This document shows, piece after piece, positions 29,838 to 45,538 of a stretch of DNA of 64,000 nucleotides (its first letter is position 1; each line of letters starts with the position of its first letter). The DNA comes from Mycolicibacterium rufum. GTDB lineage: Bacteria; Actinomycetota; Actinomycetes; Mycobacteriales; Mycobacteriaceae. Location of the stretch: the NCBI RefSeq assembly GCF_022374875.2, contig NZ_CP103313.1:1-64000 (forward strand), given 5' to 3'. Under the pieces are notes generated by a model, which saw nothing but the letters and a program-made list of their open reading frames with translations, was not told where the DNA came from and did no database searches. The position numbers and the translations under genes are program-made.

Positions 29838-29842
29838 GCTCG

Positions 29843-31144
29843 GTGGCGACTGCGCATGCTGCCCAACGTGACTGGGCACTCCGGACGCCGCGGCAGCGCG
29901 GCACCATGCTGCGAGCTTTGGCGACACTCATGCGAGAGCATACCGAAGAACTCGCGCTGCTCGACGCGATTGACGGTGGCTTTCCACTGCCTGCGATGCG
30001 CGACGATGTGAACTGGGCGGCCGAAGTGCTCGAGCTGATGGCAGACGCCGCATTTGATATCGGCGGACGTACTATTCCACTCTCGGCGAACCTCCACTAC
30101 ACGCTGCAGCAGCCCTATGGCGTGGTCGCCCGAATCGTACCCTTCAATCATCCTGTCCTGTTCGCAGGATCTAAGATCGCTGCTCCACTCATGGCGGGAA
30201 ACGCCGTGGTTTTGAAAGCTCCCGATCAAACACCGCTCTCGGCCATCCGCCTCGCCCAGTTGGCGAGGGAAGTTTTGCCAGAGGGCCTGTTTGGGGTCGT
30301 AACTGGGCATGGCGCAACTGCGGGCGCCGCGCTGGTCGCTCATCCATTGGTCCGGCGAATCGGCTTCATCGGCTCCCCTGGCACGGGTAGGCATATCCAG
30401 CGGTTGGCTGCAGAGCACGGCGTCAAATACGTCACACTCGAACTCGGCGGCAAGAACCCGATGATCGTCATGCCGGACGCCGATCTGGAGGCGGCGGCGA
30501 AAAGCGCCGTCGCAGGGATGAACTTCACCACCACCGCGGGCCAATCTTGTGGATCAACAAGCAGACTGCTGCTGCACGAAGCGATCGCTGACGAGGTGAT
30601 TGATCTGGTCGTCGATCAGGTCGCTGCCATCAAGGTAGGCGACCCGCTCGTTGACGGCACGGACATGGGACCCGTCATCGACCAAGCGCAATACTCAAAG
30701 TCGTTGCGGGCCATCGAGTCAGGACGGGCGGGCGGCGCCAGCGTGCTTACCGGTGGAGGACGCGCGCAGGGTGTTGGTAGCAAAGGCTGGTATGTCGCCC
30801 CGACCGTATTGGCTGGAGTGGCACCACAAACCGATGTCGCCCGCGACGAGATCTTCGGGCCCGTTCTTTCGGTGCTGACCGTCCGTGACGAAGCCGAGGC
30901 TGTCGAAGTTGCCAACAGCGTCGAGTTCGGGTTGACCGCCGCGGTGTGGACCAACGACGTAAGCCAAGCCCACCGCATGGCTGCGGGACTTGATGCTGGC
31001 TACGTCTGGATAAACGGCAGTGCACGCCACTACTGGGGGTTGCCCTTCGGCGGTCGGAAATCGTCAGGTGTTGGATCCGAAGAGTCCACGGAGGAACTGC
31101 TGTCCTACACCCAAGTCAAGGCAGTAACCGTCACCTTGGACTGA
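29843..31144 (+). CDS. Aldehyde dehydrogenase, N-terminus cut off by IS256-C
   Basis: 433 residues of an NAD(P)-dependent aldehyde dehydrogenase. The catalytic Glu region ([13 protein letters not shown], about 200-212) and Cys ([12 protein letters not shown], near 236) are intact, as is the C-terminal [23 protein letters not shown]. Compared with usual 475-500-residue enzymes, about 45 N-terminal residues are missing: the sequence enters the family alignment at AAHAAQRDW, right beside the IS end at 29837. The GTG at 29843 is the first start. The loss removes the first strands of the NAD domain, so the enzyme may be non-functional. Confidence 0.88.
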
Positions 31145-31707: not shown

Positions 31708-31715
31708 TGGAGGCG

Positions 31716-32064: not shown

Positions 32065-32397
32065 ATGAAAGCCGCGGCCGGATCGCTCAACGAACGACTC
32101 TCAGTCCGGCCTAGCGAACGGCAACATGCCAGGGTCGCTGTGGGGTCTGCAGAAGTCGGGTCAGATGGCGGGATTGGTGGACCAAGGGCCGCGAGTGTCG
32201 AGAAGAACCCTGTTCGGTTGGAGTCCTGGGTGGCAGACGTCGGTCTGCGAGGGGATGCCGGCTGATACCGCCGTTACCGCGGTGGCCTAAATAATAGCTT
32301 GCAAACAGTTATCATCCTATGTAAGCTTCCGTGTGGTGTAGCCCACATGAGTGCTCGCGACGGGCACAAATCACAAATCGATAGGAAGGTGCGTCCG
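32065..32397 (+). promoter_or_regulatory. Promoter region of the first Rieske oxygenase operon
   Basis: There is no gene with support in 333 bp. The stretch 32286-32340 is AT-rich compared with its surroundings. It contains TAATAGCTTGCAAACAGTTAT (32292-32312), similar to the sequence before the MFS/MarR remnant, which may be a MarR-type operator. AGGAAGG at 32383 is the ribosome binding site of the next gene. Confidence 0.45.
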
Positions 32398-33741
32398 GTG
32401 GATTCGATGGCGCCTGATGCGACGACAATGCGAACATTAGAGAATGCGCGCGGCTCCATCCTAAAGGGTCGCCTCCCTGCATCTCTCATCGCTAATGCAG
32501 CGCTTTACGAGCTTGAATTGAAGCGAGTATTTGGTAGGACCTGGCAGTTTCTCTGCCACGAAGACGAGATCCCCAATGCGGGTGACTATGTAGTGCGCTA
32601 CATCGCTGATAACTCAATTATTGTCGCGCGGCAGCAGGATATGACGATTCGGGCGATGTCGAACTCGTGTCGGCACCGCGGCACGCTGCTTTGCCGAACC
32701 GAGTCTGGGAATGAGTCGGCGTTCCAGTGTCCGTACCACGGTTGGACCTATCGAAACAACGGTGATCTCATCGCGATACCTGCGCAGCAGGCAGTGTACG
32801 GTGCTGCGTTCGACAAGAGTCGGCTAGGGTTGCGCGCTCTGCCGATGCTGGACTCGTACGCGGGCCTTGTCTTCGGGTGTGTGTCGGATGAGGCGCCGGG
32901 ACTGGATGAGTACCTCGGGGACATGCGCTGGTATCTCGACTTGATGATGAAGAAGAGCCCGGCCGGCCTTGAGGCGTGGGGTGCCCCGCAGCGTTGGGTG
33001 ATTGACGCGAACTGGAAGACCGGCGCCGATAACTTTGTTGGGGACGGCTATCACACGGTCATGACGCACCGTTCGATGTGCGAGCTGGGGTTGTTACCGC
33101 CCGATAATGTGGCCGTTTCGCCGGCCCACGTCAGCCTATCGGGCGGGCACGGGGCGGGCGTTCTAGGCGCACCACCCGGCATACCCGCACCGCCGTACAT
33201 GGGCTATCCCGAGGAAGTCGTCTCCGGTCTCAGCGAGGGTTACGGCGATGACGTCCATGGCGAGTTGCTGAAACGGACGATGTTCATTCATGGCAATGTG
33301 TTCCCGAACTTGTCCTTCTTGAACGCCTTCATCGCCAAGGACGGGCAGTCTATGCCGATGCCCATTCTGACCTTGCGGCAATGGCGTCCCTTGGACGCAG
33401 CTCGTATGGAGGTGTGGTCGTGGTTCTTCGTGGAGCGCAACGCGCCCGAAGAGTTCAAGCAGCAGTCGTTTGAGACTTATGTTCGGACGTTCGGGGTCGG
33501 GGGTGTCTTCGAGCAGGATGACGCCGAGATATTCCAGGCTATTACCAAGGGAACACGCGGCGAGTTGGCTGGTGGTGTGGAGCTGAACCTGGAGATGGGA
33601 CTGGACAATCTGGCTCCTGATCCAACGTGGCTGGGCCCGGGACGACCGTTGGCCAGTGGCTACGCCGAACAGAATCAGCGCGAGTACTGGAAGCAGTACT
33701 TCGACTATCTGACCACACCGAGAAGGGATGAGAACGTATGA
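32398..33741 (+). CDS. Rieske ring-hydroxylating oxygenase alpha subunit 1
   Basis: The GTG at 32398 sits six bases after AGGAAGGTG and gives 447 residues. The Rieske [2Fe-2S] ligands are Cys91/His93 (CRHRG) and Cys111/His114 (CPYHGW). Two His ligands of the mononuclear iron are His219 and His224, with the bridging Asp216 in GDGYHTVMTH. It catalyses dioxygenation of an aromatic substrate with electrons from a ferredoxin. Its stop overlaps the beta subunit start (ATGA). The downstream CoA-transferase, thiolase-fold, DUF35 and MaoC genes suggest that the substrate may be an aryl-acyl-CoA; this is inferred from context only. Confidence 0.93.
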   Translation: MDSMAPDATTMRTLENARGSILKGRLPASLIANAALYELELKRVFGRTWQFLCHEDEIPNAGDYVVRYIADNSIIVARQQDMTIRAMSNSCRHRGTLLCRTESGNESAFQCPYHGWTYRNNGDLIAIPAQQAVYGAAFDKSRLGLRALPMLDSYAGLVFGCVSDEAPGLDEYLGDMRWYLDLMMKKSPAGLEAWGAPQRWVIDANWKTGADNFVGDGYHTVMTHRSMCELGLLPPDNVAVSPAHVSLSGGHGAGVLGAPPGIPAPPYMGYPEEVVSGLSEGYGDDVHGELLKRTMFIHGNVFPNLSFLNAFIAKDGQSMPMPILTLRQWRPLDAARMEVWSWFFVERNAPEEFKQQSFETYVRTFGVGGVFEQDDAEIFQAITKGTRGELAGGVELNLEMGLDNLAPDPTWLGPGRPLASGYAEQNQREYWKQYFDYLTTPRRDENV

Positions 33742-34280
33742 CGACAACGGTGCCGCAGGATCCACCTCAGGCTGCGAGGGTTTCGCGCGACGTGCGCGAG
33801 GAAATCGAAGACTTCCTTTTCGACGAGGCCGATCTGTTGGATCGCGATGAGTTCGAAGAGTGGCTGGAATTGCTGGCACCGGATGTGCACTATTTCGCGC
33901 GCGTCCGTCAGACGCTTCGCAGAGCAGGTGGCCCGGGGTTCTCTGAGCGCTCTATGCACCTGAGTGATAACTACACGAGTCTGAAGATGCGTATTCAGCG
34001 GCACCGAACGTCGTCGGATTGGGCTGAGGATCCTCCGTCGCGGATCCGGCACTTCATCACCAATGTCAGGGTCAGGTCTGGTGAGGACGGCGATGAGTAC
34101 CGTGTGACGTCGAATGCGTTGCTGGTGCGCACACGCGGGGACGAAGCCAAGGCGGAGACAGTTTCTGCCGAGCGCCGAGACATTATTCGTCGCGACGAGA
34201 CGGGTTTGAAACTGGTCCAGCGCGAGATCCTGCTGGATCACACCACGTTGCCCACGCACAACCTGTCATTCTGGATCTAA
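33738..34280 (+). CDS. Rieske oxygenase beta subunit 1
   Basis: A 180-residue NTF2-fold small subunit. It has the family pattern: helix VREEIEDFLFDEADLLDRDEFEEWLELLAPDVHYFARV, SMHLSDNYTSLKMRIQR, then PPSRIRHFITNVRVR and the C-terminal EILLDHTTLPTHNLSFWI. It has no catalytic iron and stabilises the alpha3beta3 hexamer. It is translationally coupled to alpha 1. Confidence 0.92.
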   Translation: MTTTVPQDPPQAARVSRDVREEIEDFLFDEADLLDRDEFEEWLELLAPDVHYFARVRQTLRRAGGPGFSERSMHLSDNYTSLKMRIQRHRTSSDWAEDPPSRIRHFITNVRVRSGEDGDEYRVTSNALLVRTRGDEAKAETVSAERRDIIRRDETGLKLVQREILLDHTTLPTHNLSFWI

Positions 34281-34386
34281 GGTGCCGGTGAGCTTGACAT
34301 CATTACGGCGGCGCCTCCGCCGAAACTCCGGCCCACGAACGTTGTGGCCGAGCGAATTTGGGTCTGTCCTTAAGGTAGGCCGGTAG

Positions 34387-35418
34387 GTGCGCGCAGCTAT
34401 TTATCACGGTCGCGAAGACGTGCGGATTGAAGAGCTTCCCGACCCGAGTCCACGTGCGGGCGAAGTGGTCATCGAGGTGGCCCGAGCGGGGATCTGCGGC
34501 ACAGACCTGCATGAGTACATCGCCGGTCCGATGCATGCTGCGCCAGGGGTCGTCATTGGACACGAATATTCCGGGACGGTGGTCGGCGTCGGGTCCGGCG
34601 TGCGCGAGTTCACCGAAGGTGACCGAGTCTGCGGCGTCGGCGTTTTCGGCTGCGGTGAATGCGGCTTCTGCAAACAGGGCGCTGAAGCACTCTGCGGAGC
34701 AGTCGGTTTCATCGGCTTCGCTGTCAACGGAGCGCTTGCCCGCTACGCGTCGTTGCCGACGAAGGCGTTGTTTCGCATCCCGGATGAGATCAGTCTCGCC
34801 GAGGCTGCCGTCGTTGAACCGATCGCGTCGGCGTACCACGCTGTCCGCCGTAGCGGGTTGGCAGCGGGTGGGACCGTCTTCATCGCCGGCGCTGGCCCGA
34901 TCGGCCTCGCCCTGGTGCAGTTCTCACTTGCCCAAGGTGCGACTCAGGTCATCGTCAATGAGGTTTCGGCGACGCGCCGCGTTGCCGCTCACCGGGTCGG
35001 GGCTACGCGCGTAATCGATCCTCTGGCGGAGGATGCAGTTGAGGTGGTTCGGACGTTGACGAACGGAAACGGCGTCGACATCTCCTTCGACGCTGCGGGC
35101 GTACAACCCGCGCTTGATGCGGCGCTGGGCGTTCTGCGCCCCCGCGGTCGATTGATGGTCGTGGCGATTTGGGAGGCCCCGGCCGGTATCGACATCAATC
35201 GAAGCGTCATGCGCGAAGCAGATATTGGCTTCTCATTTTGTTACGAAGCGCAAAGGCAGGTCCCGGCGATTCTTGACTTACTAGCTACGGGGGCGATCAA
35301 CCTCGGTGAACTGATCACCGACGAGATCCCGTTGGATGCCGTGGTCAGTCAGGGTCTCGAGGAACTGCGCGTCAACCGCGATGCACACGTAAAAATTCTG
35401 ATCGACCCATCGGCATAG
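34387..35418 (+). CDS. Zinc-dependent medium-chain alcohol dehydrogenase
   Basis: A 343-residue MDR family dehydrogenase starting at GTG 34387. The catalytic zinc Cys is in GICGTDLHEY, His/Glu in GHEYSG. The structural zinc site is complete, with four Cys in GCGECGFCKQGAEALC. The nucleotide-binding fold follows (VFIAGAGPIGLALVQF). The overall pattern is close to 2,3-butanediol/sorbitol dehydrogenases. It could oxidise a hydroxyl formed on the substrate side chain, or a cis-dihydrodiol-derived alcohol. It is 106 bp after the beta subunit and 52 bp before the CoA-transferase gene. Confidence 0.88.
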   Translation: MRAAIYHGREDVRIEELPDPSPRAGEVVIEVARAGICGTDLHEYIAGPMHAAPGVVIGHEYSGTVVGVGSGVREFTEGDRVCGVGVFGCGECGFCKQGAEALCGAVGFIGFAVNGALARYASLPTKALFRIPDEISLAEAAVVEPIASAYHAVRRSGLAAGGTVFIAGAGPIGLALVQFSLAQGATQVIVNEVSATRRVAAHRVGATRVIDPLAEDAVEVVRTLTNGNGVDISFDAAGVQPALDAALGVLRPRGRLMVVAIWEAPAGIDINRSVMREADIGFSFCYEAQRQVPAILDLLATGAINLGELITDEIPLDAVVSQGLEELRVNRDAHVKILIDPSA

Positions 35419-35470
35419 CACGACCGGTATCGCGCCGTCGATTGTCACGCCGCCCCACCAAAGGAGTTAA

Positions 35471-36724
35471 GTGTCCGCGAATATGGAGAGTCTGTTCGAC
35501 GGTCTGACGATCCTCGAGCTGGGGCACGTGATCGCGGCGCCTTTCGCTGCCTCGCTGATCGGCGACTTCGGAGCACAGGTCATCAAGATCGAAGACCCCG
35601 GCTCGGGGGACATGTTGCGTAGGTCCGGTCCTCGTAAAGACGGAGTGCCCCTCTGGTGGAAGTCCGCGGCCCGGAACAAGTCAAGCGTCGCTGTCGATCT
35701 GCGGCTCGCCGAAGGGCAAGCGCTCGTGCGCAAAATGGTCGAACGCGCAGACGTGGTGATCGAAAACTTCCGCCCGGGAACGCTTGAGCGCTGGGGACTG
35801 GGATGGGAGGAGCTGCACGCAGCGAACCCGCGGCTGATCATGTTGCGGATTTCCGGGTACGGCCAGATCGGCCCGGAGAGCGCAAAGCCGGGATATGGAC
35901 GCGTCGGCGAGGCCATGAGCGGAGCGGTACACATCACCGGGCATCCTGACCGGCCACCGACGCATTTCGGTTTCTCCCTCGGCGATGTCACGACAGGAAT
36001 CATGGGTGCATTCGCTGTTGCCGGAGCACTGTTCAAACGCGAAGCGATCGGGGATCGCTTCGATGGGGAATGTATCGACCTGGCTCTCTACGAATCACTG
36101 TTCCGTGGTATCGACTGGCAGGTCATCCTTTATGACCAGTTGAACTTTGTTGCCGAGCGTCAGGGCAATCAGTTCCAGGTCAGCCCGTCACCGGTGTCAG
36201 ACACGTATCTCAGTGGCGATGGGGTGTGGTACACCGTGGCGACCGGCACCGTTCGGTCAGTGCAGAGCCTGCTCGAACTGCTGGGCGGCACGACTCTGCG
36301 TAACGATCCGAAGTACGCGACTCAGGAACTGCAGATGTTGCACCGCGAGGAGCTCGGCGAGATGGTTCGCCAGTGGTTCGCCGAAAACAACTCCGATATC
36401 GTCGAAAAGGCCTGCGCGAGCTCCGGTGTCGTGGCTGCGCGGATCTTCACGCCGGCAGAGATGTTCTCCAGTCCCACGTTCGCGGCTCGCCAGAGCCTGG
36501 TCGAGGTCGCCGACCAGGAATTGGGTCCGGTCCGTGTCACCGGGGTGGTACCAAGGCTGACGAACTTTCCCGGATCCGTGCGCAGCACTGGGCCCGGTCT
36601 CGGGATCCACGGCCAAGAGGTGCTGACCGAGTGGCTCGGCATGGCCGACTCGGAGTACGAGGCGCTGGTATCGAGTGGCGTTGTCGGGGCGGTCGACGTT
36701 GACGGAGAGGTTCCCGGGCATTGA
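35471..36724 (+). CDS. CaiB/BaiF-type (family III) CoA-transferase
   Basis: 417 residues, GTG start at 35471 after AAAGGAG. The N-terminal block GLTILELGHVIAAPFAASLIGDFGAQVIKIE is typical, and the catalytic Asp172 lies in FSLGDVTTG. The enzyme moves CoA between carboxylates through an aspartyl-CoA anhydride. In this cluster it most likely activates an aromatic or arylalkanoic acid at the expense of succinyl-CoA or a product CoA ester, in place of an ATP-dependent ligase. The stop overlaps the TTG start of the next gene, so the two are made together. Confidence 0.9.
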   Translation: MSANMESLFDGLTILELGHVIAAPFAASLIGDFGAQVIKIEDPGSGDMLRRSGPRKDGVPLWWKSAARNKSSVAVDLRLAEGQALVRKMVERADVVIENFRPGTLERWGLGWEELHAANPRLIMLRISGYGQIGPESAKPGYGRVGEAMSGAVHITGHPDRPPTHFGFSLGDVTTGIMGAFAVAGALFKREAIGDRFDGECIDLALYESLFRGIDWQVILYDQLNFVAERQGNQFQVSPSPVSDTYLSGDGVWYTVATGTVRSVQSLLELLGGTTLRNDPKYATQELQMLHREELGEMVRQWFAENNSDIVEKACASSGVVAARIFTPAEMFSSPTFAARQSLVEVADQELGPVRVTGVVPRLTNFPGSVRSTGPGLGIHGQEVLTEWLGMADSEYEALVSSGVVGAVDVDGEVPGH

Positions 36725-37887
36725 GTTCGCTGCGCGACAAGGCCTGCATCGTCGGCGTTGGTCATACGGCCTACCGTCGTGATGGCACTGAGTCGGCAAC
36801 GGACCTTGGCCTGCAACTCGAAGCGGCCCATGCCGCGATCGTGGATGCCGGGCTGTCGGCTGGCGAGATCGATGGGCTCATCTGCCCGATCAACGGTGGC
36901 ATGGCCGAAGATTTCATCGCGAATCTCGGCCTGACGCATGTTCGTTACGCGGTGACTTCCCATACCGGAGGCGCGGCAAGTGTGGCGGCCCTGGCAACTG
37001 CGGCGATGGCGGTTTGGTCGGGCGTCGCGCGGCATGTCCTCATTCCCGCGGGCTGGTGTGGGTACTCAGGTCCGCGTGCCCGCGGGATGGCATCGAGCGC
37101 GGACATGGCGATAGGCAAGGTTGTCCGGGACTATTACGCGCCACAGGGCGCGGTGTCGGCCGTGCACCAGTATGCGCTCGTGGCCGACCGCTACGTCCGC
37201 AAGTATGACGTGCCGCCTGAAGCGATGGGGGCGGTGGCAGTCGCGTTTCGTGCTAACGCGCAGCTCAACTCGAATGCGGTGATGTGCGGCCGTGAGCTGA
37301 CGATGCAGGACTACCTCGACGCTCCACCGATCAGTACGCCGTTTCGTTTGTTCGATTGCAGTCTGGAGACCGACGGCGCAGCGGCGGTGGTGGTATCAGC
37401 GGCCGATCGTGCGGCTGACAGCCCGCACCGGCCGGTGTTTGTGATGAGTGTGGCCGAAAGTCGCCCATTTCCCGTCGATGAGTTCGCCAACAGGGCCGAC
37501 CCATTGGAGATTGGGCTTGCCGAGGCGGCGCCGCGCGCATTTGCCGACGCTGGTGTCACCCCGTCTGACATCGATCTGCTCGAGGTTTACGACAGTTTCA
37601 CTGTCAACGTGTTGCGGCAGATCGAATCGGCCGGATTCTGCAAGCCGGGCGAAGCAGCGGATTTCGTTCTCGACGGATGTATCGCCGCTGACGGTTCGTT
37701 GCCCACGAATCTCAACGGCGGTTTGTTATCCGAAGCCCACGTGCAAGGCATGAACAATCTGGTCGAGGCGGTGCGGCAGCTGCGCGGTGGTTTACCGCAG
37801 CGGCAGGTCCACAATGCGGAGTTGGCGGTAGTGACCGGTATGGGCGGCGGATGGGGTTCAGGTGCTCTCGCGATATTGCGTCGGTGA
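36721..37887 (+). CDS. Thiolase-fold protein (SCP-x/Ltp2-like), probable retro-aldolase
   Basis: A 388-residue thiolase-superfamily protein with a TTG start overlapping the previous stop. Fold blocks are clear: ACIVGVGHTAY, EAAHAAIVDAGLSAGEIDGLI, and DIDLLEVYDSFTVNVLRQIE. The nucleophile region reads SHTGGAASVAAL, without the thiolase Cys, and the usual C-terminal CxG region reads TGMGGGWGSGALA, also without Cys; the His of the GGLLSEAHVQG motif is kept. Loss of both cysteines with a kept Tyr (EVYDSFT) is the Ltp2 pattern, in which the fold catalyses retro-aldol cleavage of a beta-hydroxyacyl-CoA. The next gene encodes the DUF35 partner such enzymes need. Confidence 0.87.
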   Translation: MSSLRDKACIVGVGHTAYRRDGTESATDLGLQLEAAHAAIVDAGLSAGEIDGLICPINGGMAEDFIANLGLTHVRYAVTSHTGGAASVAALATAAMAVWSGVARHVLIPAGWCGYSGPRARGMASSADMAIGKVVRDYYAPQGAVSAVHQYALVADRYVRKYDVPPEAMGAVAVAFRANAQLNSNAVMCGRELTMQDYLDAPPISTPFRLFDCSLETDGAAAVVVSAADRAADSPHRPVFVMSVAESRPFPVDEFANRADPLEIGLAEAAPRAFADAGVTPSDIDLLEVYDSFTVNVLRQIESAGFCKPGEAADFVLDGCIAADGSLPTNLNGGLLSEAHVQGMNNLVEAVRQLRGGLPQRQVHNAELAVVTGMGGGWGSGALAILRR

Positions 37888-37923
37888 CAGCGTTGTGACT
37901 GGCCGGTTCACAAGGGGACCGAT

Positions 37924-38382
37924 GTGAGGCGAACGGGACCGGATGTCGCAGCACCGCCGTTGCCATCTCTGGAAGGTCTCACGGCCCAGTTCTATGAGCA
38001 TTGCCGACGTGAAGAGCTGTCGTTTCAGCGGTGTTCAAGGTGCGGCCGTTGGCGTCACGTTCCTCGCCTGACGTGTGCTGGCTGCGGCAGTAACTCCTGG
38101 TCTTGGCAGAGGTCGTCGGGCAGGGGAGTGGTATTCAGCCACACGGTTATTCACCGCGCGCTGCATCCCGGGTTCGACGAGGCCGTCCCGTTCGTGTGCG
38201 CCGTTGTCGAAATGGATGAGGGTGTGCGGATGGTGGCACGGATAGTGGACCTAGTTGCCGACCGGACGGCGATGCTGGTTGATGCGGCCGTCGAGGTTGT
38301 CTATGTGCACGCCGCCGATGATGTTGTGCTGCCGGCATTTCGGCTGCCCGCTGCGGAAGTGCGGGGCAATGGCCGCCGCTGA
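37924..38382 (+). CDS. DUF35 zinc-ribbon/OB-fold protein, partner of the thiolase-fold protein
   Basis: 152 residues starting at GTG 37924. A rubredoxin-like zinc ribbon is intact (FQRCSRCGRWRHVPRLTCAGCGSNSW, two CxxC pairs), followed by an OB fold (GRGVVFSHTVIHRAL, FVCAVVEMDEGVRMVARIVD). DUF35 proteins form complexes with thiolase-fold enzymes, as in the Ltp2/ChsH2 steroid side-chain aldolase and IpfD/IpfE of ibuprofen catabolism. The coding end overlaps the MaoC gene by 14 bp. Confidence 0.88.
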   Translation: MRRTGPDVAAPPLPSLEGLTAQFYEHCRREELSFQRCSRCGRWRHVPRLTCAGCGSNSWSWQRSSGRGVVFSHTVIHRALHPGFDEAVPFVCAVVEMDEGVRMVARIVDLVADRTAMLVDAAVEVVYVHAADDVVLPAFRLPAAEVRGNGRR

Positions 38383-39415
38383 CGAGTTGCGCGATCGTGT
38401 CGGTGAGAAGATCCACTTTCGAGGCGCCGACTCGGTGACGCAGAACGACATCCGCCGCAAACTGGAGGTTTTCACCTTTTCCTGTCCGCTGCATGACGAC
38501 GAGGCGGCAGCGAAGGCGCACGGCTACCTCGGCGTTGTGGCCCCGGTGACGATGACCCCGCTGTGGGGGCTGCCGCCGTATTGGGCACCCGGACAGCCCA
38601 GTCCCTATCTGGTCGACGGGCAGGAGATGACGGGCAACATCACCGACACGCTGGCTCTGCCGTTCAGCCGATCGGTCAACGTCAGCAGCGAGTGGCAGTA
38701 CCACACACCGCTGTACTTGGGGGACAGGTTGCAGGGGACTACGACGATCATCTCGGTAGAGCAGAAGCGCACCCGGGTGGGTACCGGAGTCTTCCTGCAA
38801 TACGAGTCGGAGTACGTGAAGGTTTCGGGAGAACTGGTGGCGCTCAACCGAAATACCGTCTTCAACTACGACCCAGACGACGCCTCCAGGCCTGAGCCCG
38901 GCACTTCGGCCCGCGCCCAGCAGGGCGACCGAGGTCCCCGCACGCGCTCAGTGGACGATGCCGATACCAGTGTCGACTGGAACACGCCACTTCAGTTCGA
39001 CGACGTTACGGTCGGTGCGCAAGTGCGCGGACCGGCTCTGGCCCTGACTTACCAGCGCATGGTGATGAACATTGCCGCGGATCGCATGTTTTCCGGGATA
39101 CACCACAGCGCCGCGGCCGCTCATGCCGCGGGGCTTGCCGACATCATCTTCAATACTCGTGGCCTGGAAACTCTTTTCGAGACCGGGCTTCGTCGATGGA
39201 TGGGCCTTCGCGGCAGGTTGGTGCAGCTGGGTCCGTTTAAGATGAGTGCCTCAGTTCACCCGGGCGACGTGGTGCAGGCGCGATGGACGGTGACCGGCAA
39301 GCATGCGCAGGCAGGCGCAGACGTCGTAGATCTCGAATTCGGTGTCTTCGCCGGGGATCGGCAAGCGGCGCAAGGGGTTGCCGCCATTCATCTCAACGGC
39401 AAAAAGCAATGCTGA
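38369..39415 (+). CDS. Double hot-dog MaoC-family hydratase/dehydratase
   Basis: 348 residues from ATG 38369. The N-terminal half is a MaoC_dehydrat_N-type hot-dog (LEVFTFSCPLHDDEAAAKAHGYLGVVAPVTM, then SRSVNVSSEWQYHTPLYLGDRL). The C-terminal half carries the hydratase-like block MVMNIAADRMFSGIHHS, with Asp and His in roughly the catalytic spacing, and the strand MSASVHPGDVVQARWTVTG. It would add water to an enoyl-CoA, giving the beta-hydroxyacyl-CoA that the retro-aldolase splits, or act in reverse. It is equivalent in position to the MaoC partner of ChsH2. Confidence 0.78.
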   Translation: MAAADELRDRVGEKIHFRGADSVTQNDIRRKLEVFTFSCPLHDDEAAAKAHGYLGVVAPVTMTPLWGLPPYWAPGQPSPYLVDGQEMTGNITDTLALPFSRSVNVSSEWQYHTPLYLGDRLQGTTTIISVEQKRTRVGTGVFLQYESEYVKVSGELVALNRNTVFNYDPDDASRPEPGTSARAQQGDRGPRTRSVDDADTSVDWNTPLQFDDVTVGAQVRGPALALTYQRMVMNIAADRMFSGIHHSAAAAHAAGLADIIFNTRGLETLFETGLRRWMGLRGRLVQLGPFKMSASVHPGDVVQARWTVTGKHAQAGADVVDLEFGVFAGDRQAAQGVAAIHLNGKKQC

Positions 39416-39445
39416 TCAGAGTTCTGTAGGAGAAGGAGGGTTCCG

Positions 39446-39643
39446 ATGAGTGTTATCAAGGCGGACGTGGAGGTCTGCCAGGGCTACGCGAACTGTGTCG
39501 TTGCAGCGGCCGACGTCTTCGACATCGGTGATGCGGGAACTGTTGTCATTCTTGATGACACGGTAGCCGAGAGCGATGAGGCGCGGATTGTCACGGCGAT
39601 TCGCAGTTGCCCCGTCTCGGCTCTACGCCTCGAAACGGCCTGA
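39446..39643 (+). CDS. Small ferredoxin, probably [3Fe-4S] type (second copy)
   Basis: 65 residues with Cys11 and Cys17 in CQGYANC and Cys54 before Pro; Tyr14 replaces a fourth ligand. AGGAGAAGGAGG precedes the ATG. It is clearly related to the ferredoxin at 25091. No reductase gene lies beside it, so it probably uses the reductase at 25288 or a host enzyme. It stands between the side-chain genes and oxygenase 2 and may serve both oxygenases 1 and 2. Confidence 0.9.
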   Translation: MSVIKADVEVCQGYANCVVAAADVFDIGDAGTVVILDDTVAESDEARIVTAIRSCPVSALRLETA

Positions 39644-39890: not shown

Positions 39891-41306
39891 ATGACGTTAA
39901 AAATGAGTACTTCAGGCGGTTCGGACACGACCGCTCGTAGTCTCGTCGATGTCGATCGCGGGGAGATCAGTCGCGAAATCTTCACCGATGCTTCGATTTT
40001 CAACCGTGAGTTGGAGTATTTGTTTCCGCGGAGCTGGTTGTTTGTGGGTCATGCCTCGCAGGTCTCTGCGCCGGGTCAGTTCTTCTCGTCGAGGATGGGC
40101 TCGGATCCGGTGTTGTTGACCCGTGACGCTCAGGGTGGTGTGAATGTCTTGCTCAATTCGTGCCGACATCGGGGTATGGCGGTGTGTCGCTACGACGAGG
40201 GTCGCGCGCTCCAGTTCACCTGTCCCTATCATGGCTGGTCGTACTCGATGGACGGTTCGCTGGTGTCCACCCCGGGGGATTTGCACGGTGTGCCGCAGCA
40301 GGGCATGGCCTACGGCAACGGCCTTGACAAAGCGGCCTGGGGACTTGTCAGGGCTGCCAAGGTGCACAATTACAAGGGCCTGGTATTCGCGTGCTGGGAT
40401 CCATCAGCCCCGGAGTTCGATGAATACGTTGGGGACTTTCATCATTGGCTGGATAACCTGTCTGATGCTTTTGATGGTACGGAAGGTGGTACCGAGGTGT
40501 TCCGTGGGGTGCAGAAGTGGCGCATCAAATCAAATTGGAAATTCGTCTCAGAGAATTTCTTGGGCGATACCTATCACGGGGCGACGACCCATGCCTCGGT
40601 TGAACAGGTGGGCATCGGGCCGGGTGGCAGAAATTCACGACGTCACGGTGAACGACAGGATCAGGGTGGTTTTTCGAAGGGCCGTGTGAAGACGTCGTTT
40701 CGGATGGGCCATGGCGCGTCGGACAATCTGGCGTATGAGATTCCCTATCCTGAGTTCGCCGAAGAACCGGCCTTGAGTGAGTACTTCTCCCAGGCGTGGG
40801 CGGTCCGCAAGGAGCGACTGCAGGCGCAGGGCAGACTGCTCGGTGGTCGTGGCCCGGCGACGATGTTCCCCAATATGTCGTTTTCGGCCGGTTTTCCGCG
40901 GACGATCCTGGTGTCACATCCGATCAGCCCGACCGAAACCGAGGTGTGGCGCTGGTATCTCGTCGACAAGAACGCACCCGATGATGTGCGTGACTGGTTG
41001 CGCCGCTATTACATGCGCTACTCGGGTCCTGGAGGGATGACGGAGCAAGACGATATGGAGAACTGGAATTACGCGACGCAGGCCAGCCAGGGCGTGATAG
41101 CCCGGCGCTACCCCTACAACTATCAGCAGGGTCTCGGCAAGGAAACTCCCAGTGAGCTCGACCAGGCGGTGCATTCTCACCAGCCCATCGCTGGCGAGGT
41201 GAATGCACGCGCCTTTTACCGGCGATGGGCCGAGTTCACCGACAACCTCTCGTGGCCCCTACTCATCGAACTCGCCAAATCCGACGAGAGAGCCGCACGG
41301 TCGTGA
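39891..41306 (+). CDS. Rieske ring-hydroxylating oxygenase alpha subunit 2
   Basis: 471 residues, ATG after AAGGGAAAGG. Rieske ligands Cys91/His93 (SCRHRGMAVC) and Cys111/His114 (CPYHGW). Mononuclear iron site: Asp226, His229 and His234 in GDTYHGATTH. It differs clearly from alpha 1 in the substrate domain (for example the segment GPGGRNSRRHGERQDQGGFS), so a different substrate is expected. The stop overlaps the beta 2 start (GTGA). A 247-bp gap upstream may carry its own promoter. Confidence 0.93.
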   Translation: MTLKMSTSGGSDTTARSLVDVDRGEISREIFTDASIFNRELEYLFPRSWLFVGHASQVSAPGQFFSSRMGSDPVLLTRDAQGGVNVLLNSCRHRGMAVCRYDEGRALQFTCPYHGWSYSMDGSLVSTPGDLHGVPQQGMAYGNGLDKAAWGLVRAAKVHNYKGLVFACWDPSAPEFDEYVGDFHHWLDNLSDAFDGTEGGTEVFRGVQKWRIKSNWKFVSENFLGDTYHGATTHASVEQVGIGPGGRNSRRHGERQDQGGFSKGRVKTSFRMGHGASDNLAYEIPYPEFAEEPALSEYFSQAWAVRKERLQAQGRLLGGRGPATMFPNMSFSAGFPRTILVSHPISPTETEVWRWYLVDKNAPDDVRDWLRRYYMRYSGPGGMTEQDDMENWNYATQASQGVIARRYPYNYQQGLGKETPSELDQAVHSHQPIAGEVNARAFYRRWAEFTDNLSWPLLIELAKSDERAARS

Positions 41307-41860
41307 GTGCAACGGGCGACGAAATTTCCACGAGGCAGGACGCGGTAGAAAAGTTGCTGCTACAGGCCGAAATCGCCGACTTTCTTTATCGGGAAGCCGA
41401 CCTGCTCGACGAACGACGTTACTCCGAATGGCTCGGTCTGCTCACCGAGGACTACGAGTACTCCGTTCCACTGCGGACGAACGTGGCGTACGACGACCTC
41501 GCGCAGCTGGAACAGACTCAGCAAGGTAGCGACATCTGCTGGTTCGACGAGGGGAAGGAGACGGTCGCTTTGCGGGTGGAGCAGCTGATGACGGGACTGC
41601 ACTGGGCGGAAGAACCCGTCTCGCGAGTGTCACACCTCGTCACCAACGTGCGTATCGAGGCGGTAGAAGACGCGGAAGTCGAGGTGAGCTGCCGCTTCCT
41701 GGTGTACCGGAATCGGGTCACCGATGAAACGGATTTTCTGGTCGGCCGCCGCAGGGACCGATTGCGGCGCAGTGTGGCTGGCGATTGGCAACTGTGTCGT
41801 CGCCGGCTACTCCTGGACCAGGCGGTGCTGCTTGCCAAGAACCTCTCGATCATCCTGTGA
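41303..41860 (+). CDS. Rieske oxygenase beta subunit 2
   Basis: 185 residues from GTG 41303, overlapping the alpha 2 stop. NTF2-fold small subunit: EIADFLYREADLLDERRYSEWLGLLTEDYEYSVPL, PVSRVSHLVTNVRIE, and the C-terminal LLLDQAVLLAKNLSIIL. Structural partner of alpha 2. Confidence 0.92.
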   Translation: MSATGDEISTRQDAVEKLLLQAEIADFLYREADLLDERRYSEWLGLLTEDYEYSVPLRTNVAYDDLAQLEQTQQGSDICWFDEGKETVALRVEQLMTGLHWAEEPVSRVSHLVTNVRIEAVEDAEVEVSCRFLVYRNRVTDETDFLVGRRRDRLRRSVAGDWQLCRRRLLLDQAVLLAKNLSIIL

Positions 41861-41960: not shown

Positions 41961-42404
41961 ATGTCTACGTTCCTCGAACCACAGCGATGTGCCGACGATG
42001 TGACCGCCCTGAAAGTGATGACAGAGGAAATGCGCCCGCTTCTGATCGGCGACGGCTACCAGATGTTCGAGGTGCGCGCACCTGAATCATCTGGACCGCC
42101 TCCGCACCAGCATCCCTGGGATGAAAGCTACGTGGTGCTCGAGGGCGTGCTGTGGGTAAGCCGCGGCGGCGAAGAAGCGACCCTGCAGGTGGGTGAGGCG
42201 ATTCGGGTGCCGGCCGGCGTCGTGCACGCCTATCGCGTTCTCTCTGACGGCGCCCGGTGGATCACGACCTCGTCTACCCCGGGCGGCGCGCTGGATTTCT
42301 TCTCCGATGTGGATGCCGCGTCCAACGGCCCCGGCGACGTGAGAGCCCTCATCGAGGCCGCGAAGCGAAACAGGGTCGAATTCGCCGATCCGGCATTGCA
42401 ATAG
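41961..42404 (+). CDS. Cupin-domain protein
   Basis: 147 residues, ribosome binding site AAGGGGG. Cupin motif 1 is PPPHQHPWDESYVVLEGVLWV and motif 2 is VPAGVVHAYRV, giving a probable His/His/Glu/His metal site. Unlike the cupin at 20810 it has an extended C-terminal helix. Cupins of this size in catabolic clusters are often isomerases, decarboxylases or substrate-binding accessories. The specific role is unknown. Confidence 0.75.
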   Translation: MSTFLEPQRCADDVTALKVMTEEMRPLLIGDGYQMFEVRAPESSGPPPHQHPWDESYVVLEGVLWVSRGGEEATLQVGEAIRVPAGVVHAYRVLSDGARWITTSSTPGGALDFFSDVDAASNGPGDVRALIEAAKRNRVEFADPALQ

Positions 42405-42444
42405 CCGTCATTTTGATTTCTCAGCACGCACACGGCGCCGTGGT

Positions 42445-43377
42445 ATGCCAAAAGTGTTGACAGCCGGCGCAGAAGGTGGCGTTGGGCCGGCTGCTGTCAT
42501 GAGGCGGGTCGGCGTGATCGGTCTGGGCGCCATGGGTTCCGCGCTGGCGGCGTCGCTTCTCGCGACGGACCATTCGGTGGTTTGTTTCGACATTCGGCCC
42601 GACGTGTTACGCCCACTTGTGGAGCTAGGCGCCGAGGCTGCTGCGGACGCGCGTGAGTTGGCCGGCGCATGTGATGTCGTTTTGACGTTCCTCCCGGGGC
42701 CGAGTCAGGTGCTGGAGGTGGCGCTCGGGTCGGAGCGAGGTGTCCTGGCCGGCCTTGCCGACGGGGCCGCCCTGCTGGATATGTCGACCTGTAATCCCGA
42801 GGTTGCAGCGATCATCGGTCAGGCCTACGACGCGGCTGGGAGGCGTTTTGTCGATTGCCCCGTCAGCCGAAAGGCGCCGAACATGACCGTTCTGATCGGA
42901 GGGCCGCCGGGGGTACTGGGCCCTGATGCCGATGTCCTCGCCGCCGTCTCGCGCACCTTGGTGTACTGCGGCCATCGAGGCGCGGGATATGCCACCAAGC
43001 TTCTCAACCAGCACGTCAAGTACAGCTGGTATCTCGCTTCGGCGGAAGCCCTCTTAATCGCTGAGGCGATGGGATTGAATGCCGGCGAGGTAGCCGACGC
43101 GATCGCGGAGTGCAGCGGGGGGGACTCGGGTCTCACTACGGCGGCGGCGTACTTCCGCCACGACACCGAGTCAGTTAGGAACCGCGCCCCCGCTAGCACC
43201 ATTACGAAAGACTCCGCGCTGGCGGAAAGTATGGCGACGAACGCCGGTATCCGCAGCAGGACGCTTGAGCCCGTCGTGGACTTCTTCCAAAGTGTTGCGG
43301 CCTCGGAGTTTCGCGACCGTGCCTACCCCGAAAGCACAGAACTTCTTCAGCGAATCCGGTCGATGCCTCCGAAGTGA
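42445..43377 (+). CDS. 3-hydroxyisobutyrate dehydrogenase-family (beta-hydroxyacid) dehydrogenase
   Basis: Up to 310 residues; the ATG at 42499 (MRRVGVIGLGAMGSALA) would start directly at the Rossmann motif and may be the real start. The GLGAMG motif, the strand VVCFDIRP, and CDVVLTFLPGPSQVLEV are typical. The substrate Lys is seen in the C-terminal domain (GYATKLLNQHVKYSWYL). Such enzymes reversibly oxidise beta-hydroxy acids or tartronate semialdehyde. It may process a short hydroxyacid or aldehyde released from the substrate side chain; this is inference. Confidence 0.82.
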   Translation: MPKVLTAGAEGGVGPAAVMRRVGVIGLGAMGSALAASLLATDHSVVCFDIRPDVLRPLVELGAEAAADARELAGACDVVLTFLPGPSQVLEVALGSERGVLAGLADGAALLDMSTCNPEVAAIIGQAYDAAGRRFVDCPVSRKAPNMTVLIGGPPGVLGPDADVLAAVSRTLVYCGHRGAGYATKLLNQHVKYSWYLASAEALLIAEAMGLNAGEVADAIAECSGGDSGLTTAAAYFRHDTESVRNRAPASTITKDSALAESMATNAGIRSRTLEPVVDFFQSVAASEFRDRAYPESTELLQRIRSMPPK

Positions 43378-43416
43378 ACCCCTACGTCTTGAGTGCGACC
43401 CCCGTCACGCTGTATA

Positions 43417-43434
43417 GCTAACTGAATTGTTAAC
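43417..43434. promoter_or_regulatory. Candidate MarR operator
   Basis: GCTAAC, six bases, GTTAAC: inverted arms with 5 of 6 positions matching, about 110 bp before the MarR ATG at 43544. Typical size and symmetry for a MarR autoregulatory site. Confidence 0.4.
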
Positions 43435-43543
43435 GGGTCGAATATCGGTGAGCGGAAAGAAAGACCACCAGCCATTTGCCGGTATGATCGGCACCCGGGT
43501 GGAGATGTCTGCCGAACCGCTGATCAACGTTGCAAGGGACTTC

Positions 43544-44107
43544 ATGAGTACCGAGAAGTTGACGATGGCCGAACAGGTCGCGGCCAAGACCCGCGAAGCC
43601 GGACCCGATCACGACCCCTCTTCGTTGGCGCTCCCGCTTGCGCTCTACCGTGCTGTGACCGCCTTCGGTCGGGTCGCCGCCGAGGAGTTGGCCCCGGTCG
43701 ACCTTTCGATGAGCCAGTTCAACGTCCTCACCGTCCTCAAGCGGGCCGAGAGGCCGATCACGATGGGCGCACTAGCGGACTCTATTTCCGTACGCCAAGC
43801 CAGCCTGACGAGTGTCGTCGACAGCCTGACCAAGGCAGGCTTTGTCACACGCAAGGTGAATCCCCGCGATCGCCGTTCGGTTGTGGTCGCGATATCGAAG
43901 AAGGGCGATCAGTTCATGACCGAGTTTCTGCCCGGTCACTACGACTTCCTGCAGACAGTATTTGCCGGTATCAAACCGCGGCACAGACAGCAGTTGCTTG
44001 CACGACTGGATGAACTCATCGATTGTTTGGAGGCATATCCGACCGACACGCAAAAGGCGATCCGCAGCTCGTTATCGCAGGCCGCCGCAGGCCAGACCAG
44101 GCCATAG
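43544..44107 (+). CDS. MarR-family transcriptional regulator
   Basis: From the ATG at 43544 the protein is 187 residues; in-frame starts at 43427 and 43505 would lengthen it. MarR pattern: the N-terminal dimer helix ALPLALYRAVTAFGRVAAEEL, the HTH (ITMGALADSISVRQASLTSVVDSL), the wing with the conserved Asp-Arg-Arg (RKVNPRDRRSVVVAI) and the C-terminal helices. MarR proteins of aromatic clusters are commonly repressors released by the aromatic acid or its CoA ester. It is the only complete MarR gene here and could control the oxygenase 1 and 2 units. Confidence 0.87.
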   Translation: MSTEKLTMAEQVAAKTREAGPDHDPSSLALPLALYRAVTAFGRVAAEELAPVDLSMSQFNVLTVLKRAERPITMGALADSISVRQASLTSVVDSLTKAGFVTRKVNPRDRRSVVVAISKKGDQFMTEFLPGHYDFLQTVFAGIKPRHRQQLLARLDELIDCLEAYPTDTQKAIRSSLSQAAAGQTRP

Positions 44108-44211: not shown

Positions 44212-44961
44212 CTAGGACCGATGGTTTTCCAGGCGCCCCAGCTCATGACGCCATGCGATGGTGTCGTTTAGTGCGTTACCGAGATCTGGAAGCTCTGCAG
44301 CGTCATCGTCTGTCAGTTCAGCCAGAGCGCCACCCGCAGAAGCGATCTGAAGCGACAAACGCGAGATGGTGTCGACGCTGATCGCCTGTATCACCGCCCG
44401 CTCGACAGTTTCGGCAACGCTAGTGAGCCCGTGCGCGCGGAGAATAACCACCGGTCGATCGCCCATGGCAGCAACCATTTCCTGGGCGAGTTGCCGATTC
44501 CGCAACAACACTCCCCGCGGATACACGGGCACGCCACCCGCGGCAAGCCGAAAACCAGGGATGTCGAACGCTCCGACGATCGGTCGGACAGCCAGACCGG
44601 CGAGATCGGCGGCAACTACCGCTGCGGGATGCGCATGCACCACAGCATTGACATCGCCTCGGGCGCGAAGCACCTCGGTGTGCAGCGGCAACTCGTTCGG
44701 GGGCTGGTAACCGTCATCGAATTCTCCCGCGGCACCCTCGGTGCCGTCCAACGTGACCAAACGGATGTCCTCTGCGGTGGTGAACGCTAGCCCGCGCTCC
44801 CGGGGACCGCGGCATCGGATCAGCAGCCGATCCCCGTCGACGCGCAGGCTGATGTGGCCGAGGATGCCTGGCGCCAAGTCGCGCGCCGCGAGGACGCGGC
44901 AAGCAAGCGCGATCGCCTGTCGTTCAGGGTCGAAACCCGTCCCCGAAGTGGTGGAGCTCAT
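44212..44961 (-). CDS. Class II aldolase/adducin-family enzyme
   Basis: From the ATG at 44961 this is 249 residues. The zinc-binding His pair is seen in AVVHAHPAAVVA, and a further His in RAHGLTSVAETV; Glu in PPNELPLHTEV is the likely catalytic acid. The family includes sugar-phosphate aldolases and aromatic decarboxylases such as 3,4-dihydroxyphthalate decarboxylase (PhtC type). Context favours an aromatic decarboxylase or an aldolase acting on a ring-cleavage product. Operator site ii lies 310 bp upstream, so the gene may have its own promoter; it is also the last gene in line with the minus-strand operon. Confidence 0.75.
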   Translation of the reverse strand: MSSTTSGTGFDPERQAIALACRVLAARDLAPGILGHISLRVDGDRLLIRCRGPRERGLAFTTAEDIRLVTLDGTEGAAGEFDDGYQPPNELPLHTEVLRARGDVNAVVHAHPAAVVAADLAGLAVRPIVGAFDIPGFRLAAGGVPVYPRGVLLRNRQLAQEMVAAMGDRPVVILRAHGLTSVAETVERAVIQAISVDTISRLSLQIASAGGALAELTDDDAAELPDLGNALNDTIAWRHELGRLENHRS

Positions 44962-45316
44962 CGGCAGCTCAGGGTTTCGGTATCGGCGCACTCCGTGGAG
45001 GCGATAACGACGTCCGCAGATGCTCCGCGCAAAGCGCGATGAGCGCTGCCGGGCACGATTATTACCATCGGTCTCACTTCCGTCTCGTCCGTCTCCGTTG
45101 GGCGGCGGTTGCCGGGGGGCAACGAAGCTGAAGCGGCGCCAGGATGAACCTGGTGGCGACGCCAGTGCAGGAATCATCGGCGCTCATTACCCAACACCGC
45201 ACTACGAAGCGATCACCGGCTGCACAGCGATCCAGTGCCGGGACTCAAGCGCCCGGGCATCTTTTTGGTAGAAATCAACTCTGTTATACAGAGATTATGG
45301 TTCATGTGCCGTCGAG
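44962..45316 (-). other. Gap between the aldolase-family gene and the 73-aa ORF
   Basis: About 350 bp holding operator site ii. The long in-frame extension of the aldolase gene across it (to 45177) is Arg/Pro-rich and not convincing as protein. Confidence 0.5.
45271..45300 (-). promoter_or_regulatory. Operator-like palindrome (site ii), upstream of the class II aldolase gene
   Basis: On the minus strand: CCATAATCTCTG, four bases, ACAGAGTTGATTTC. The same 30-bp layout as site i (24741-24770), with perfect CTCTG-N5-CAGAG symmetry. It faces the gene at 44961. Confidence 0.6.
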
Positions 45317-45538
45317 TCAACGGGTAAGATCGTCGGCGACTTGCCGATAAGCCGCCAGCAACATCGTGTGGGTGCCAATGTCGGTGTGGGTCGTCTCCTG
45401 AAGGCCATTCTGGCTTCTGGTTTCGTCGATGAATCGATCGCCATAGGCAGCGACGCGCCACCTGAACAAGCGTCCGCCGAGCGATCGGGCGGCGGATGAG
45501 TGACCCCGCCATGTCAGCACATCTGCGCCCCGCTTCAA
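45317..45538 (-). CDS. Small protein coupled to the extradiol dioxygenase gene
   Basis: A 73-residue frame starting with TTG at 45538, which overlaps the stop of the LigB-type gene (AATTGA). The sequence is coherent and non-repetitive (FRWRVAAYGDRFIDETRSQN, then THTMLLAAYRQVADDL). I recognise no family. Class III extradiol enzymes often have a small LigA-like subunit, so an accessory or small-subunit role is possible, but I see no specific similarity. Confidence 0.4.
   Translation of the reverse strand: MKRGADVLTWRGHSSAARSLGGRLFRWRVAAYGDRFIDETRSQNGLQETTHTDIGTHTMLLAAYRQVADDLTR

Follow-up and report, generated by a model that had tools for sequence, protein, structure and literature searches.

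A candidate CoA-dependent side-chain removal module in a probable NidA3B3-type aromatic hydrocarbon island of Mycolicibacterium rufum

The window analyzed here is a 64,000-nucleotide stretch of Mycolicibacterium rufum DNA (bases 1–64000 of a 92,928-base contig; genome of 6.1 Mb in three contigs), and its central feature is a row of eight genes, all on the plus strand at 32347–39643. These encode the alpha and beta subunits of a Rieske ring-hydroxylating dioxygenase (RHDa1 and RHDb1), a zinc-dependent alcohol dehydrogenase (ADH), a CaiB/BaiF coenzyme A (CoA)-transferase, a thiolase-fold protein, a DUF35 protein, a MaoC protein, and a ferredoxin. An earlier sequence-only reading had listed the same eight proteins on one strand and called their genes mostly coupled, which is right, as the gaps from RHDa1 to the ferredoxin are −4, 106, 52, −4, 36, −14, and 30 bases. 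RHDa1 ends at 33741 and starts at 32347 or, alternatively, at the 32398 used in that reading; for the MaoC gene we place the start at ATG 38369 in preference to a mechanically called TTG at 38255. The sequence-only reading went on to propose that the Rieske enzyme oxygenates an arylalkanoyl-CoA, whose side chain is then removed to give a catechol. We consider it moderately probable that the locus is instead the NidA3B3 branch of a mycobacterial polycyclic aromatic hydrocarbon (PAH) island, mainly for fluoranthene, with CoA-dependent side-chain removal; the step served by the CoA genes most likely follows ring opening rather than preceding oxygenation.

The row is inherited as a unit. In a survey of 297 Mycolicibacterium genomes, the same 14 carry the thiolase-fold gene (at least 87% identity), RHDa1 (at least 93%), and a downstream LigB-family extradiol dioxygenase gene (at least 86%; partial pieces in M. 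hodleri), and the next-best matches beyond these 14 reach 53% for the thiolase-fold protein and 64% for the alpha subunit. RHDa1 and the thiolase-fold gene start about 4.3–4.4 kb apart in each carrier. A Fisher test on two of the co-occurring genes gave 3e-24, a figure that describes one inherited block and not 14 independent events. From named records, we assembled 39 loci, 12 of them close (87–99%) and 27 more distant (30–39%). The core order from RHDa1 to a second Rieske alpha gene, RHDa2, is the same in all 12 close loci, so the gene row is more than a chance arrangement, and the shared order that the sequence-only reading had suggested looking for does exist in Mycolicibacterium. The CoA genes lie between RHDb1 and the ferredoxin in each of the 12. 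The downstream part with RHDa3/RHDb3 or phtC/LigB/Gfo is present in 10 (the other two loci run off their contigs). RHDa1 was absent from the examined stretch in the 27 distant loci. Window positions 28366–55537 are 97–98% identical to positions 3866420–3894850 of the M. frederiksbergense LB501T chromosome, save for a missing 1,274-base piece, and the block therefore occurs in both plasmid-size and chromosomal settings. The plasmid setting assumed earlier amounts, for the window, to the 92,928-base contig and the ParA-type genes on it, and it does not extend to LB501T.

RHDa1 carries the Rieske motif CxHx15-18CxxH and the Fe-ligand motif, is 98.7% identical to another Mycolicibacterium alpha subunit (P0121), and has the Rhodococcus naphthalene dioxygenase 2b1x as its best solved relative. 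Its best plasmid relatives, at 52–53%, are of NarAa type, and their neighbors include dihydrodiol dehydrogenase and aldolase-family genes; we take the nar names to be correct, and one source name in the records agrees. In a tree of 26 chosen rows, RHDa1 falls into supported sets of 4 (99/98), 5 (99/92), and 13 (97/98) rows with alphas of SNP11, M. pallens, and NarAa type. IpfA, the alpha subunit of the ipfABDEF ibuprofen cluster, is 28% identical to RHDa1 and stands outside the PAH clade on a long branch, which makes its own placement unsure. Aryl-CoA oxygenation in the manner of ipf was dropped after this tree: the alpha belongs to the PAH-dioxygenase clade and its genes to mycobacterial PAH islands. 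The sequence-only reading had named grouping with enzymes for free acids as the result that would count against it, and what we found comes near to that, the relatives using free hydrocarbons rather than free acids. Catechol as the product is likewise not supported.

Literature background was taken from passages of PMC9195938, PMC10517868, PMC12114333, PMC10301208, PMC10799122, PMC8347714, PMC12329534, PMC11321319, PMC2672333, PMC6220107, PMC4969647, PMC5819568, PMC4342237, and PMC7585852, and the statements on published work here reflect those passages. The LB501T paper describes two PAH catabolic regions whose genes include nidAB, nidA3B3, and pdoA2B2, and the two LB501T loci found here (L028 and L030) fall in these regions, L030 beginning 221 bases ahead of its region. 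A table for strain TJFP1 gives nidA/nidB at 864270–866200, with which RHDa1/RHDb1 agree in length, 4-base overlap, and order, and region A of strain PYR-1 reads nidB2, nidB, nidA, nidA3, nidB3. Together, the TJFP1 table and the PYR-1 order put RHDa1 at the nidA3 position. By clade, position, and length, RHDa1 is very probably NidA3, the alpha subunit of the mycobacterial dioxygenase listed as a fluoranthene/pyrene oxygenase; one literature listing pairs nidA3 with fadA1. The likeness to NidA3B3 of region A extends to clade, placement with respect to phdK/nidA/phdF, length of the genes, and the alpha/beta overlap; the window's genome differs in that it has this branch but no close NidA or SNP11-type alpha.

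The thiolase-fold protein resembles aldolases. Its top three Foldseek matches, two chains of 6ok1 (Ltp2, 31% identical in the fold alignment) and 9myr, are all aldolases, with Ltp2 ahead of Sal, and 6ok1 is also the top match by sequence, with 4u4e, which is called a thiolase, close behind. Catalysis in Ltp2 involves Tyr294 (in YDHF) and Tyr344, and in Sal Tyr302 and Cys304, C304S being inactive (PMC12329534). The window protein retains the base tyrosine of the YDxF motif, here Y290DSF, and has His340 at the position of Ltp2 Tyr344 and Ser292 at that of Sal Cys304; because of these two replacements, we file it as working like Ltp2 and Sal rather than as either of them. The motif is YDCF in 102 of the 120 relatives listed, YDSF in the 11 closest, and YDPF in 7, and His340 is present in all 120. 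Seven YDSF proteins, including that of the window, form one supported set (96/99) in a tree of 18 chosen rows. The wider family (P0012–P0120), which comprises the 102 YDCF and 7 YDPF proteins, each with His340, includes members from metagenome-assembled genomes (MAGs) of Binatia, Deltaproteobacteria, and Dehalococcoidia. The nucleophilic cysteine of a thiolase is expected within residues 56–112, a region that holds no cysteine in the window protein. A canonical thiolase is disfavored by the YDSF motif and the fold matches.

The adjoining DUF35 protein has a C-x2-C-x10-C-x2-C zinc ribbon, as in ChsH2. The Ltp2–ChsH2(DUF35) aldolase and ChsH1–ChsH2 hydratase of the cholesterol C3 side chain likewise combine a thiolase fold, a four-cysteine DUF35 ribbon, a linked MaoC, and the YDxF tyrosine. 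The window departs from them in having YDSF instead of YDHF, His340 instead of Tyr344, a CaiB gene in the operon, an aromatic setting, DUF35 as a separate protein, and MaoC as one two-domain protein. The bile-acid aldolase/hydratase Sal–Shy shares the fold, the DUF35 partnership, and the YDxF tyrosine, whereas the window has serine where Sal needs Cys304 and a separate DUF35 protein with four cysteines, not C3H1. With the ipf cluster of pIBU218, the window has a ring-hydroxylating dioxygenase, a thiolase fold, and DUF35 in common, but the ipf alpha is of another branch, no MaoC is annotated beside ipf, and the active site of IpfD is YDAF plus tyrosine as opposed to YDSF plus histidine. The replacement of a ligase by a CoA-transferase, noticed in the sequence-only reading, stands, the CaiB protein occupying the place of the acyl-CoA ligase IpfF. 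Apart from ipf, pIBU218 bears a second set at 10939–14557 with an Ltp2-like protein carrying YDHF, an OB-fold protein, a crotonase, and CaiB. We thus agree with the sequence-only reading that the CoA-transferase, hydratase, thiolase-fold, and DUF35 proteins look like a set for CoA-dependent hydration and retro-aldol side-chain removal, with the Ltp2–ChsH2(DUF35) chains as the best solved relatives.

The MaoC protein had been likened to ChsH1, a comparison we correct here: it is a two-domain FAS1_DH-type protein (PF13452) and not a single domain. Steroid hydratases of actinobacteria are described as similarly joining one catalytic MaoC half to one that is inert. Candidates for the Asp/His dyad of MaoC enoyl-CoA hydratase 2 are Asp238 and His245, which are spaced by 7, are present in 119 of the 120 homologues listed (the other has a gap), and fall in a low-confidence part of the structural model. 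The structural model consists of two hotdog halves, and a PDB sequence search with the protein returned nothing. Its fold neighbors are MaoC dehydratases and hydratases (5i7n, MSMEG_6754, MeaC, Chloroflexus 4e3e, and itaconyl-CoA hydratase), which we treat as suggestive only because the mean predicted local distance difference test (pLDDT) score of the model is 77 and falls below 50 at residues 238–248. Those with a named reaction that rank highest are MeaC and itaconyl-CoA hydratase, which act on branched dicarboxylyl-CoAs, and 23 of the 120 listed homologues bear the JGI name 3-methylfumaryl-CoA hydratase. The identity to MeaC, 4e3e, and itaconyl-CoA hydratase is only 12–17% in the fold alignments, and the MaoC protein here is, unlike these, paired with a thiolase-fold aldolase. 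The hydratases of itaconyl- and 3-methylfumaryl-CoA yield citramalyl-CoA, a tertiary beta-hydroxyacyl-CoA whose cleavage gives acetyl-CoA and a ketone. For the remaining enzymes, the best NCBIfam matches all lie under their cut-offs: scyllo-inosose 3-dehydrogenase and threonine dehydrogenase for the ADH, and succinate-glutarate, CoA:oxalate, and succinyl-CoA:mesaconate CoA-transferases for CaiB. The three cysteines of the ferredoxin presumably form a [3Fe-4S] pattern.

The reported physiology of the species points to fluoranthene. M. rufum JS14 used fluoranthene and showed no capacity for pyrene, phenanthrene, or fluorene; in the passages available, it is described as being without nidA, phtAa, phdE, and phdK and as having three pcaG and two pcaH genes, with phtC (EU78_28715) and an extradiol dioxygenase gene (EU78_28720) under adjoining tags (PMC4969647). 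The window genome has three PcaG-like and two PcaH-like places. Neither the window genome nor M. hodleri DSM 44183 (G035) has a close orthologue of the alphas P0140 (M. pallens) and P0130 (SNP11); what these two match best there is RHDa1 itself, at 53% and 62%, respectively. In 12 of the 14 carriers of RHDa1 there are two further alphas, at about 64% and about 53%; in the same survey the window genome and M. hodleri (a draft of 80 contigs) show one alpha each, of RHDa1 type. A review lists as fluoranthene metabolites an ylidene acid, 9-fluorenone-1-carboxylate, a 1,9a-diol, and benzene-1,2,3-tricarboxylate; for another bacterium, 9-fluorenone-1-carboxylate has been proposed to arise from the ylidene acid.

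From the gene content, families, order, co-inheritance, and motifs observed, we infer every reaction and substrate of the following route. NidA3B3 would dihydroxylate fluoranthene, the zinc ADH would probably make the diol, and an enzyme outside the genes assigned here would open the ring. CaiB could then load CoA onto the exposed side-chain carboxylate of the ring-opened acid, MaoC could hydrate the exocyclic C=C bond, and the resulting (tertiary) beta-hydroxyacyl-CoA could undergo retro-aldol cleavage by the thiolase-fold/DUF35 complex. On the C-2,3 route, the most likely substrate would be 9-carboxymethylene-fluorene-1-carboxylate, converted to 9-fluorenone-1-carboxylate and acetyl-CoA. As a matter of chemical reasoning, an aldolase is needed because a tertiary beta-alcohol cannot be oxidized for thiolysis; the ylidene acid of fluoranthene poses a problem like that of citramalyl-CoA, which makes hydration followed by retro-aldol cleavage a natural solution. 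RHDa3b3, the Gfo dehydrogenase, LigB, and the HMGL/acetaldehyde dehydrogenase/FAA genes may serve later angular dioxygenation, meta cleavage, and the C5 branch. More generally, and more tentatively, four-ring PAH breakdown in mycobacteria may include a CoA-dependent hydration and retro-aldol step performed by a dedicated CaiB/two-domain hydratase/thiolase-fold–DUF35 set, which would fill the step from the ylidene acid to 9-fluorenone-1-carboxylate. Its aldolase would use a third catalytic pair, different from those of Ltp2 and Sal: Tyr290 and His340, with Ser292 at the place of the cysteine of Sal and most relatives.

The genes around the row are listed with it in Table 1. The pCAR3 and pDF02 alphas nearest RHDa3 adjoin hydrolase and extradiol genes, in clusters of fluorene/dibenzofuran type, a kinship consistent with angular dioxygenation of a fluorenone. 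RHDa3 groups with the pCAR3 alpha at 92/97 in the 26-row tree, a node not marked as supported. The aldolase, acetaldehyde dehydrogenase, and FAA-family genes presumably make up a 2-hydroxypentadienoate branch, judging by their families. RHDa2 and its beta subunit, the 3-hydroxyisobutyrate-dehydrogenase-like oxidoreductase, and a class II aldolase recur on Sphe3 pASPHE302 beside a tripartite tricarboxylate transporter (compare window 39891–45177), which suggests an aromatic polycarboxylate pathway. The upstream region also holds pca genes, with pcaG at 16408. An intradiol-like open reading frame at 27458–28030 was considered as the ring-opening enzyme and dropped: it is an orphan PcaG homologue, 56% identical to that pcaG, and is not claimed for ring opening because no pcaH adjoins it.

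Table 1. Features of the eight-gene row and of its surroundings (window coordinates)
Feature	Coordinates	Strand	Evidence
RHDa1, Rieske ring-hydroxylating dioxygenase alpha, very likely NidA3	32347..33741	+	Pfam Rieske + Ring_hydroxyl_A; PAH-dioxygenase clade; Rieske and Fe-ligand motifs intact
RHDb1, beta subunit, very likely NidB3	33738..34280	+	PF00866; 543 bases; overlaps alpha by 4 bases
Zinc MDR dehydrogenase, proposed cis-dihydrodiol dehydrogenase (inferred)	34387..35418	+	PF08240 + PF00107
CaiB/BaiF family III CoA-transferase, proposed CoA activation of ring-cleavage acid	35471..36724	+	PF02515, 350 bits
Thiolase-fold protein, proposed retro-aldolase	36721..37887	+	Ltp2 6ok1 best solved relative by sequence and fold; Y290DSF, His340
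DUF35/ChsH2-type zinc ribbon + OB fold partner	37924..38382	+	PF12172 + PF01796; best solved relative ChsH2(DUF35) 6ok1_B
Two-domain MaoC/FAS1_DH hydratase (predicted)	38369..39415	+	PF13452; Asp238, His245 conserved
Ferredoxin, proposed dioxygenase partner	39446..39643	+	PF13459; three-Cys pattern C-x5-C...CP
RHDa2, second Rieske alpha, aromatic-acid type by neighborhood	39891..41306	+	75% to Arthrobacter FB24 and Sphe3 plasmid alphas
Second dioxygenase beta, true start probably internal	41225..41860	+	PF00866
Small cupin	41961..42404	+	PF07883
3-Hydroxyisobutyrate-dehydrogenase-like oxidoreductase	42445..43377	+	PF03446; 44% to Sphe3 gene near RHDa2 homologue
MarR regulator	43427..44107	+	PF01047
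PhtC, 3,4-dihydroxyphthalate decarboxylase	44212..45177	-	NF053537, 389 bits, cut-off 200
LigB-family extradiol dioxygenase	45535..46530	-	PF02900; in the same 14/297 genomes as RHDa1 and thiolase
Gfo/Idh/MocA dehydrogenase	46550..47779	-	PF01408; 1230 bases, same as TJFP1 pht4
Third dioxygenase beta	47818..48330	-	PF00866
RHDa3, third Rieske alpha	48333..49652	-	41% to pCAR3 alpha, 38.6% to pDF02 alpha
4-Hydroxy-2-oxovalerate aldolase, acetaldehyde dehydrogenase, FAA-family hydratase	51294..54108	-	PF00682 + PF07836, PF09290, PF01557
PhdK-like aldehyde dehydrogenase, 5′ end lost beside IS256-type element	29843..31144	+	PF00171 from profile position 36 on; placed as TJFP1 phdK
Type V ferredoxin and reductase, PhtAc/PhtAd-like	25091..26526	+	68% and 61% to pDF02 phthalate-type operon genes

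Mobile elements lie upstream of the row. Mutator/IS256-type transposase genes lie at 13178, 23296, and 28399 (the last at 28399–29706), and a near-identity plasmid search with the window gave 42 records, the best place in each of the 20 listed being the IS256-type element. This insertion sequence (IS) element abuts the 5′-truncated phdK (28366–31706), a junction shared at 97% with the second, 33-kb region of LB501T (L030); the two blocks therefore share an ancestor. Fragments of an MFS transporter and a MarR regulator lie at 31460–32064, and between 31706 and 31707 the window is without 1.27 kb found in loci L030, L031, and L038. Matches to the Rfam families Ms_IGR-7 and Ms_AS-8 (9717–9836, 10012–10129, 57076–57194, 13068, 23186, 29742, and 63080) coincide with or lie close to transposase genes or IS-like stretches, suggesting that IS sequence is part of these small RNA families.

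A number of observations weigh against the fluoranthene reading. The name NidA3 depends on clade, position, and length. RHDa1 is broken in one LB501T copy (L028), and LigB has an in-frame stop in G136, in M. hodleri (G035), and in the second copy of G096. Species named as PAH degraders in the literature consulted account for only 4 of the 12 close loci (LB501T twice, M. hodleri, and M. pyrenivorans). The remaining close loci include one MAG and one uncultured isolate; the other species are reportedly PAH degraders too. The second catalytic residue of Ltp2 (Tyr344) or Sal (Cys304) is unmatched in the thiolase-fold protein, and the MaoC model is of medium quality, its top-ten fold matches having root-mean-square deviations of 7–12 Å. 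Among the window proteins scanned, we found neither an enzyme opening a 2,3-diol nor a meta-cleavage hydrolase. The review derives the 9-fluorenone-1-carboxylate of JS14 from a 1,2-diol by meta cleavage, with no need for CoA. Finally, LB501T, which has two copies of the block, appears in its paper as a degrader of anthracene, and pyrene too is listed as a substrate of NidA3B3; other acids may therefore be the substrates.

One such alternative keeps the module and its retro-aldol step and has them act on carboxyvinyl-arenecarboxylates formed when other PAH diols undergo ortho cleavage, such as 3-(2-carboxyvinyl)naphthalene-2-carboxylate in the case of anthracene; a PhdK-type enzyme would then oxidize the aldehyde product. 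A PhdK-like gene does lie upstream in 11 of the 12 close loci, and both the two copies in the anthracene degrader LB501T and the 12 of 14 carriers that have the other two PAH-type alphas fit this idea. In the window, however, phdK is cut at its 5′ end next to the IS element that the second LB501T copy shares, and in the survey of alphas the window genome and M. hodleri show one each, of RHDa1 type. M. rufum is moreover reported as lacking phdK and as not degrading phenanthrene, fluorene, or pyrene, anthracene going unmentioned in the passages (PMC4969647), and we regard this alternative as unlikely. Still less probable is a true thiolase serving a round of beta-oxidation that shortens a ring-cleavage acid, the ADH acting in it as the 3-hydroxyacyl-CoA dehydrogenase. 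Although an operon with ADH, MaoC, and thiolase-fold genes formally provides the parts for beta-oxidation, the motif is YDSF, the cysteine of 102 of the 120 listed relatives being serine in the 11 closest, residues 56–112 are free of cysteine, and the best three fold matches are aldolases.

A role of the CoA genes in the use of some unrelated acid, with the PAH island as their carrier, would agree with the plasmid relatives of the thiolase-fold protein at 43–50%: the three loci viewed lie among acyl-CoA, hydrolase, and P450 or transporter genes, and the stretch shown has no annotated Rieske gene. The occurrence of the CoA genes with RHDa1 at a fixed distance in 14 of 14 carriers, and between RHDb1 and the ferredoxin in all close loci, makes this very improbable. 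We give slightly less credence again to the original proposal, in which CaiB activates an arylalkanoyl acid, the Rieske enzyme dihydroxylates the aryl-CoA, and chain removal leaves a catechol. A dioxygenase, a thiolase fold, DUF35, and CoA activation are indeed common to the ipf cluster, but the 28% identity to IpfA and place in the PAH clade, CaiB instead of a ligase, the YDSF plus histidine site against YDAF plus tyrosine in IpfD, and the linkage of the module to PAH islands all speak against it.

The PAH island and NidA3B3 are already known. In the open-licence literature searched, we found no paper assigning the CaiB, MaoC, thiolase-fold, and DUF35 genes to a PAH step, and neither a CoA-dependent hydratase/retro-aldolase step in PAH breakdown nor this YDSF active-site variant turned up; closed papers, notably on PYR-1, could contain an earlier annotation; nor did we find, in the searchable open-licence literature, an enzyme assigned to the conversion of 9-carboxymethylene-fluorene-1-carboxylate to 9-fluorenone-1-carboxylate. 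In the passages available, side chains in mycobacterial PAH degradation are described as being processed by splitting pyruvate off an alpha-keto side chain; the aldehydes left behind are then oxidized and decarboxylated. If the fluoranthene reading is true, a CoA-dependent retro-aldol branch would account for acetyl-CoA release and for fluorenone acids in fluoranthene cultures, and a strain reported to degrade fluoranthene and none of three other PAHs would offer a clean genetic test. RHDa1, the thiolase-fold gene, and LigB together would then be a genetic marker for fluoranthene use, and the Ltp2/DUF35 aldolases would be extended from steroids to pollutants.

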